A DNA stretch of 57,504 bases from Planctomycetota bacterium. Lineage in GTDB: Bacteria > Planctomycetota > Phycisphaerae > Sedimentisphaerales > Anaerobacaceae. Under the pieces are notes generated by a model that saw only the letters and a list, made by a program, of their open reading frames with translations, was not told where the DNA came from and made no database searches. Below are positions 8,956 through 10,773 of this stretch, one piece after another. The position numbers and the translations under genes are program-made. Position 1 is the stretch's first letter, and each line of letters opens with the position of its first letter. The stretch lies in the NCBI GenBank assembly GCA_014384025.1, contig JACNGQ010000425.1:1-57504 (forward strand). Reading direction: 5' to 3'.

Positions 8956-9223
8956 AATGATTTCCTTCCTCAAAAACCTCAGAGCACCTACTTAAAATCA
9001 TTGCTTCCGAATTGGTTACAAATTTAAGATTAAAGATATTACGGTCAGCCAACTATGTCAATGATTAAAATTCCCAATAAGATAATCGTGCAGTGTATTG
9101 AGTTTGTATCAATGAAATGTATTCAAGATCAGATAAATACACAGCGAAATGAATAATGAGGTGTCGAGAAAAAATCTTTGCTGAATAAGGCGAATTCTCA
9201 GTACATAAGTCAGACGCTAATTT

Positions 9224-9922
9224 TTATCCGGGACGGCAACTGTCGCATTCCGGCCTATAACGCCGACAGCTCTCACAATCACAGACTCCAATGTGCCTTA
9301 GATGTGAGACTCCGGCTAACCTCTTAGTTTCAATCAACTTCGCTCCCTTAGTCTCCATCTTGCGAAGTGCAAGCTTAGCTTCCCTTTTATTATGAGAGCC
9401 TACTGCATCGATTACAACAGTTACCTGTCTGCCTCGCTGCAATAATCCCAGTGTGGTGGCCGCGACAGCACCTTCGAGACTGATACCAACGACAATAAAC
9501 TCACTGGCTCGCACTTCACTGAGCAATCTGTCAATACGAGGCTCATTAAACGGGTCAATGCACCGCTTATGAAGTATGACCTGCTTGTACTTTCGCAGCA
9601 TATCTCTCGGCAAATCAGTATTTCCATCGGCCGTAAAACTTATACGGTTATTAAATAATGAGTAACTTATTTTCTTCTGCCCATCGGTACCATCAATACA
9701 GTAATCGACCTGTGTTTCCCCATTCTGATTGGCGTGAACCTCAGCGGTGGAAATTATGGGGACATTCCGATATCTTGCCCAGGCCATGACCCTGCGTATA
9801 TGAGCCAAAACCCTTCTGTGGTTTCCGATACATGCTTTGCCGCCCGCAATTAGAAAGTCTTTCTGGGTATCAATATCTAATAAAATCTGCTTACGCTTTG
9901 TTCTGATTAGCTGTAGAATCAT
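9224..9922 (-). CDS. isochorismatase-fold protein without the catalytic cysteine, with C-terminal Cys cluster
   Basis: A 232-residue cysteine-hydrolase (isochorismatase) fold protein. The acid of the triad is present in DTQKDF (D18) and a lysine in HKR (K119). At the nucleophile position the family pattern VVG(x)3-(x)-C-V reads VVGISLEGAV, so alanine (A152) replaces cysteine. The last 20 residues add five cysteines spaced C-x-C-x2-C-x6-C-x2-C (C214-C229), which looks like a zinc- or metal-binding knuckle and is not part of the family core. AAGGAAG precedes the ATG. It stands alone, divergent from trmB. It is therefore a likely pseudoenzyme with a binding or regulatory role, or uses another chemistry; no substrate can be named. 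Confidence 0.8.
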   Translation of the reverse strand: MILQLIRTKRKQILLDIDTQKDFLIAGGKACIGNHRRVLAHIRRVMAWARYRNVPIISTAEVHANQNGETQVDYCIDGTDGQKKISYSLFNNRISFTADGNTDLPRDMLRKYKQVILHKRCIDPFNEPRIDRLLSEVRASEFIVVGISLEGAVAATTLGLLQRGRQVTVVIDAVGSHNKREAKLALRKMETKGAKLIETKRLAGVSHLRHIGVCDCESCRRYRPECDSCRPG

Positions 9923-10149
9923 TTTAGGGCTTCCTTATCCTGGCTTCTACGATTCAGTCCTATAATGAATACGTATCAGCCAACAATCAGGTTCATTGAT
10001 TCTTATCGAACAGTCTGAGCAGCCACTTTAATCACAGCAAAATCACAAAAGTAATTTCAACCTTAGCCCAAACGGCTGTTATTCTGTATAATACATATGC
10101 TGAATGCCCGTTATCGTTTTTTTGTGTATATTTTTAGTTGATTTTACAA

Positions 10150-10773
10150 ATGGCACGTACATTAAAGGAATATCCTTCGGTCTTACTAAAATCCGAGGAG
10201 ATAGACAACAGAATCGATTTTGTCCGGATTTTCGGACGTACCGGCCCGGTCCATATCGAAATCGGTTCGGGCAAGGGGACCTTCCTAATTAATCAAGCAA
10301 GAGCCAGGCCGGGTGACAATTTCCTCGGTATCGAATGGGCCCGTAAATACTACCGGTATGCAATTGACCGCATCGGCCGATGGGGCCTGACAAACGTACG
10401 GATAATCCGCACCGATGCCGCTGTTTTTTTGGCTGATTTTATTACCGACAGCTCCGTAGAGTGTTTCCATATTTATTTTCCCGATCCCTGGCCGAAAAAA
10501 CGTCACCACAAAAGACGTTTTATCAGCCCGGCTAACCTGGAGCATCTAATTCGCTGCTTAAAGACGGGCGGACAGTTAAAAATCGCCACCGACCACGAAG
10601 ATTATTTCCAGGTAATACAAGAGCTAATTACTGACCAAGACAAAGGACTTGAAGAAATTCAATTTCTCCCCACGGCTGGTGCAGATAAAGGAGAATGGGT
10701 CGGTACAAACTTCGAACGCAAATATCTCAAAGACCAAAGGTCAATTTATACCATCGCAGTGAAAAAAATATAA
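10150..10773 (+). CDS. trmB: tRNA (guanine-N7-)-methyltransferase
   Basis: A 207-residue SAM-dependent methyltransferase that makes m7G46 in tRNA. Recognisable signatures are the SAM-binding loop HIEIGSGKGTF, GIEWARKY, the catalytic-region motif FPDPWPKKRHHKRRF and ATDHEDYF near the C-terminus, all characteristic of TrmB. The length is normal for a bacterial enzyme. No Shine-Dalgarno sequence is visible. The ATG at 10150 is the most conventional start, but a TTG at 10138 cannot be excluded. The gene is monocistronic and converges on the nitrilase gene; a 15-base palindrome (TGATAA-GCG-TTATCA, 10781-10795) lies between them. Confidence 0.95.
   Translation: MARTLKEYPSVLLKSEEIDNRIDFVRIFGRTGPVHIEIGSGKGTFLINQARARPGDNFLGIEWARKYYRYAIDRIGRWGLTNVRIIRTDAAVFLADFITDSSVECFHIYFPDPWPKKRHHKRRFISPANLEHLIRCLKTGGQLKIATDHEDYFQVIQELITDQDKGLEEIQFLPTAGADKGEWVGTNFERKYLKDQRSIYTIAVKKI

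Follow-up and report, generated by a model that had tools for sequence, protein, structure and literature searches.

The window, by which we mean the whole 57,504-nucleotide stretch of Planctomycetota DNA that was analysed, carries on its minus strand, at 9224..9922, a 232-residue open reading frame with an ATG start, which its Pfam match and its orthologs identify as a putative pseudo-isochorismatase gene. The plus-strand frame across the same interval is interrupted by many stops. A trmB-like tRNA methyltransferase gene (PF02390), assigned by domain match and locus comparison, lies divergently on the plus strand at 10138..10773. In the 215 bases between the two genes, on the minus strand at 10003..10030, there is a sigma-28-like promoter sequence, TAAAGT-N16-CGATAA, with 80 bases from the end of the element to the ATG. 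No Rfam family matched the region 9000-10300.

The Pfam Isochorismatase profile (PF00857) matches residues 13-200 with an E-value of 1.7e-22 (80.8 bits against a cut-off of 27); in an NCBIfam search with the same protein all matches stayed far under the cut-offs. The AlphaFold model has a mean pLDDT of 77.6, with a low-confidence C-terminus, and the solved structures nearest to it in Foldseek are nicotinamidases and other isochorismatase-like hydrolases. The best PDB match is the Streptococcus pneumoniae nicotinamidase 3o94 (Z 21.4, rmsd 2.5, 178 residues). By profile and by its modeled alpha/beta fold, the protein is a member of the isochorismatase-like superfamily, as an earlier sequence-only reading of this DNA had claimed.

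A search for relatives returned 22 loci, 20 of them close. The gene is found in 86 of 150 genomes of the class (match at E 1e-5) and in 74 of 89 genomes of the family (E 1e-20), and the lineage is spread through the class (Phycisphaerae). The 195 matching loci were reduced to 151 distinct proteins by the removal of identical ones, and 82 of the 151, in families f1, f2, f4 and f5, are paired with the divergent trmB gene (hereafter, paired orthologs). Within the 151 proteins the pairing is absent from the unpaired paralogs of the order and from the group outside it, and across the order no neighbour other than the trmB-like gene has been retained consistently. A quick tree (LG+G4, SH-aLRT support only, nucleophile column masked) covered 144 of the 151 proteins, leaving out the fragments L002, L177 and L042 and four proteins shorter than 150 residues; 57 of its 141 inner branches are open. 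The window's genome also holds a short paralog fragment (G000:C297:7924-8067; L002, L094), 65% identical over residues 148-195, which likewise has Ala at the nucleophile place. No paper on an isochorismatase in Phycisphaerae was found, and the entries listed for isochorismatase together with planctomycetes or pseudoenzyme named no such protein.

Active-site residues and their drift

The sequence-only reading held that alanine replaces the catalytic cysteine, at residue 152 (codon 9467..9469, minus strand), while D18 (9869..9871, minus) and K119 (9566..9568, minus) remain. In a phmmer alignment with the Pyrococcus horikoshii pyrazinamidase 1ilw, D10 pairs with D18 and C133 with A152; D10 and C133 we take to be the catalytic residues of that enzyme. 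The two Cys-bearing relatives L024 and L025 place their Lys on K119 and their Cys on A152, and the assignment of K119 rests on this alignment because the one with 1ilw shifts the Lys by six residues. All three residues are as had been read. C121, which had been considered as a substitute nucleophile, is rejected: it lies two residues past K119, outside the nucleophile column, and is Cys in 62 of the 82 paired orthologs and Ser, Thr or Val in the others.

Beyond the window, the catalytic positions are much less constant. The 82 paired orthologs have D (32), N (42), G (5) or S (3) at position 18, K in 70 at position 119, and A (65), S (13), T (2), E (1) or C (1) at position 152, so that the D-K-C triad of cysteine hydrolases such as PncA and YcaC is broken at its third place in all of them except one. 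Positions 18 and 119 are both changed in 12 of the 82. The triad is wholly lost in L041, L043 and L055, which have G at 18, I, I and L, respectively, at 119, and S at 152. Outside the order (n = 43) the nucleophile position holds C in 12 proteins, S in 10, G in 9, A in 7, D and T in 2 each, and E in one.

The remainder of the protein is well kept. R120 and F125 are present in all 82 paired orthologs, and conservation reaches 1.00 (rounded) at D16, Q20, K84, Q114, R120, F125, P128, R129 and R132, as well as at G146, G159, L160, R163, V167, D172, G193 and G204; altogether 48 columns are at least 95% identical. The dN/dS ratios between the window gene and its congeners L004-L007 lie within 0.12-0.20, which corresponds to purifying selection. 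Unlike the paired orthologs, 18 of the 19 unpaired paralogs of the order (L020, L021, L202 and L207 are examples) retain both D18 and K119, while Ala or Ser occupies the place of the Cys; for this reason they may be Cys-less enzymes.

The replacement of Cys by Ala is in itself insufficient for the loss of enzymatic function that had been proposed. In EntB, Asp and Lys occur together with Gly at the nucleophile position. PhzD-like isochorismatases work as D-K-Gly without Cys (the triad of PhzD is D38-K122-G155; PMC5353710), so a protein with Ala, D18 and K119 could still be an enzyme. Such a Cys-independent enzyme would suit the window protein, which has Ala rather than Gly at the third place, and also the 18 unpaired paralogs. 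It is unlikely for the paired lineage, in which 50 of the 82 proteins have exchanged the Asp at position 18 for N, G or S and both residues have changed in 12, while R120 and F125 stay in every one; a pathway context is also missing, because trmB alone among the neighbours recurs across the order. This lineage has probably not preserved catalysis, since no more than 32 of the 82 retain D18 and some relatives are without any triad residue. What speaks for the loss of activity is that D18 and K119 decay although the gene is under purifying selection. Such a pattern fits a pseudoenzyme whose structural or binding role has been maintained, and we regard the protein as likely to be one. The lost triad residues, together with the frameshifted C-terminus of the window gene (see below), would also be expected of a functionless gene in decay. 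This explanation is very improbable in view of the dN/dS values against four congeners, the 48 nearly invariant columns and the presence of the gene in 74 of the 89 genomes of the family.

The cysteine tail

The C-terminal part of the reading frame contains five cysteines in the arrangement C-x-C-x2-C-x6-C-x2-C, which had been read as an added Cys cluster, suggestive of a metal-binding or regulatory protein. The first three (C214, C216 and C219; 9266..9283, minus strand) form a C-x-C-x2-C tail that is found in 72 of the 82 paired orthologs. The last two are of different origin. The codon at 9257..9259 (minus) has an extra base, at about 9258, relative to the four closest relatives (L004-L007), all of which lack it, and the C-terminus that follows (9224..9259, minus), with C226, C229 and the stop, is frameshifted. 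The neighbouring frame of the window ends in GRNATVAVPDKN and a stop, which matches the GRKATVGAPEKN and stop of L004-L007; C226 and C229 are consequently the product of a frameshift, whether real or from the assembly. A conserved cluster of five cysteines is therefore rejected and a conserved C-x-C-x2-C retained. This part of the reported cluster would mislead a study of metal binding.

The conserved cysteines of the tail are thus three; elsewhere in the protein C31 is kept in 72, C75 in 76 and C121 in 62 of the 82 paired orthologs. Among the unpaired paralogs of the order whose upstream sequence was long enough, 9 of 18 also have C-x-C-x2-C, as against none of 47 rows from outside (9/19 and 0/43, respectively, in the tree set). 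The tail is disordered in the AlphaFold model (pLDDT below 50) and missing from 10 of the 82 paired orthologs, and both points count against the explanation that we prefer. Binding of a metal by the tail is a tentative prediction, somewhat less probable than its absence.

The suggestion that the loss of the catalytic Cys and the gain of the tail go together did not hold, as 31 of the 43 tail-less proteins outside the order are also without the Cys. Of the 10 paired orthologs in which the tail is missing, 9 also have no Cys at the nucleophile position (L029, L211, L213, L214 and L217 are examples that speak against the coupling). On the tree there are 4 independent pairs that differ in the Cys, and the tail follows in about one; this number of pairs is too small to test the coupling.

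The promoter-like element and its sigma factor

In an alignment of 17 intergenic regions, which share 42% mean identity, TAAAGT and CGATA are invariant. An element with at least 9 of 11 positions matching and a spacer of exactly 16 is present at 80 of the 82 paired loci (the exceptions are L223 and L227), and at 53 of these all 11 positions match; of the 65 unpaired loci for which 300 or more upstream bases were available, 7 pass the same criterion. The 16 spacer bases are variable, so that their number is fixed and their sequence is not. For 73 of the 82 paired loci the score was never reached in 200 shuffles of the same base composition. Within family f1 the leader that separates the element from the start codon (9930-10000 in the window) contains a second conserved stretch, with the consensus GCGTATTCATTATAGGAC, which is perhaps a leader element or a second promoter. 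Outside the order, two of the three rows of f12 (L053 and L063) have an upstream near-match of 10/11 with a spacer of 16. A sigma-70 scan gave 3 promoter-like sites, compared with 3.4 expected.

The element closely resembles, in sequence and arrangement, a promoter of the sigma-28 (FliA/WhiG) type. For E. coli sigma-28 the consensus given in PMC2859248, TAAAGTTT-n11-GCCGATAA, places 15 bases between TAAAGT and CGATAA compared with 16 here. The -35 TAAA and -10 CGATAA at fixed spacing, as in a sigma-28 regulon, are found at 80 of the 82 paired loci, with the spacer one base over that of E. coli. In the window's genome, TAAAGT-N15-CGATAA stands upstream of a gene for a FliA-type sigma factor (contig C226) and TTAAGT-N15-CGATAA at two flagellin loci. 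The spacer of 16 is one base longer than in these sites, which we count against the sigma-28 assignment.

It also counts against the assignment that across the window's genome the pattern TAAAGTN{15,17}CGATAA is not enriched (it occurs 7 times, in part inside genes, and its reversed control 5 times), nor is a looser form (16 against 17). When seven other genomes from the order were scanned, TWAAGT-N16-CGATA matched 36 times and the reversed control 12 times. Thirty of the 36 were viewed as loci; six are the gene described here, and many lie inside genes or before unrelated genes, which is a further point against. The intergenic sites precede genes for FliD_N (G105), N_methyl pilin-like (G128), T2SSE with MshEN (G056, G146) and Poly_export (G128) proteins, as well as genes for a CDP-alcohol phosphatidyltransferase, a subtilase and an alginate-export-like protein. 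In the T2SSE/MshEN ATPase genes (L255 in G056 and L264 in G146, both distant members of the order) TTAAGT-N16-CGATA is located 40-42 bases upstream.

The element could instead serve as an operator or promoter mainly for trmB, or for both genes, and the isochorismatase-like protein would then be tied to tRNA modification. The conservation of trmB as sole neighbour throughout the order would agree with this, as would the distance from the element, which varies less towards trmB (sd 22) than towards the isochorismatase-like gene (sd 36). Against it, TAAA and CGATAA are in the sigma-28 order solely when read towards the latter gene, fliD-, pilin- and pilB-like genes have an element of this kind pointing towards them, and most unpaired paralogs are without it (2 of 19 have it). 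We judge a role centred on trmB to be distinctly improbable, and control of the isochorismatase-like gene by sigma-28 to be quite probable from the form and position of the element.

A FliA/WhiG-type sigma factor scores over the cut-off in all 20 gene-bearing genomes of the order in the class sample. Four of these (G081, G146, G116 and G128) have no flagellin, and the gene therefore does not follow flagellin, which is present in 107 of the 150 genomes of the class. In the class as a whole the gene occurs in none of 8 genomes that lack the sigma factor, whereas 86 of the 142 genomes that have this factor also carry the gene (p 0.0008 in a Fisher test that ignores kinship). Within the order the evidence that the gene follows the sigma factor is weak, because the three genomes that have neither are from one family (f3). 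At six loci, with neighbours named by eye from sequence, the sigma gene adjoins dapF and mostly also a gene for an FlhG-like ATPase, even in the absence of flagellin. Genomes of the order may have more than one FliA/WhiG-type copy; one of ~251-267 bits is found in all gene-bearing genomes, and the lower-scoring copies (~188-231 bits) are mostly in genomes with flagellin.

Proposed role and comparison with known systems

We propose that the paired lineage is a non-catalytic isochorismatase-fold protein, made in one order from a FliA/WhiG-type sigma-28 promoter. The gene would belong to a motility and cell-surface programme that includes flagella and type IV pilus-like genes, and the emptied active-site pocket would offer a surface for a ligand or a partner, so that the protein might act as an adaptor or regulator. 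To this reading, with the metal step excluded, we assign a probability of about 0.55. The exposed C-terminal C-x-C-x2-C could in addition bind a metal, with the fourth ligand provided by a partner or a second subunit. The combined evidence suggests that the protein takes part, without catalysis, in the control of motility or of the cell surface; the earlier proposal of a regulatory protein was a reasonable guess, which the sigma-28-like promoter now helps. A more specific version is rather unlikely: the Cys-tailed protein would be the most constant target of the sigma factor in the order, even without flagellin, and would regulate through a redox- or metal-responsive tail, for instance the sigma factor itself or the assembly of pili and flagella.

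The divergent pairing with trmB in the order and the TAAAGT-N16-CGATA element upstream of the paired orthologs are new, and give a lineage of probable isochorismatase-fold pseudoenzymes a regulatory setting that is strongly conserved and had not been expected. Annotation would describe this gene as an isochorismatase or cysteine hydrolase; the context given here is a different and testable one, in which the product is probably not an enzyme and is linked to a sigma factor of the flagellar type. Little is understood of the motility and surface programmes of these bacteria.

Compared with the nicotinamidase/pyrazinamidase PncA (3o94, 1ilw), the window protein has the same fold, the same positions of D18 and K119 and the same D-x-Q-x-D-F start, but it is without the nucleophilic Cys and has the C-x-C-x2-C tail and the sigma-28-like promoter. 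Positions 61 and 63, presumably metal ligands in PncA, are mostly changed (E61 is kept in 51 and H63 in 24 of the 82 paired orthologs). With PhzD and EntB it shares the absence of Cys at the nucleophile position and the kept Asp and Lys; it differs in having Ala or Ser instead of Gly there, in the disappearance of the Asp from most paired orthologs, and in the lack of a pathway context. For the regulatory setting the closest parallel is Rubrobacter, where, according to PMC8325347, a WhiG-type sigma factor controls type IV pili and not flagella. In common with that system, the FliA/WhiG sigma factor is kept here in genomes without flagellin, and TAAA...CGATAA promoter-like sites occur before pilus-like genes. 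Rubrobacter belongs to another phylum, and the most constant target seen here is the putative pseudo-isochorismatase.
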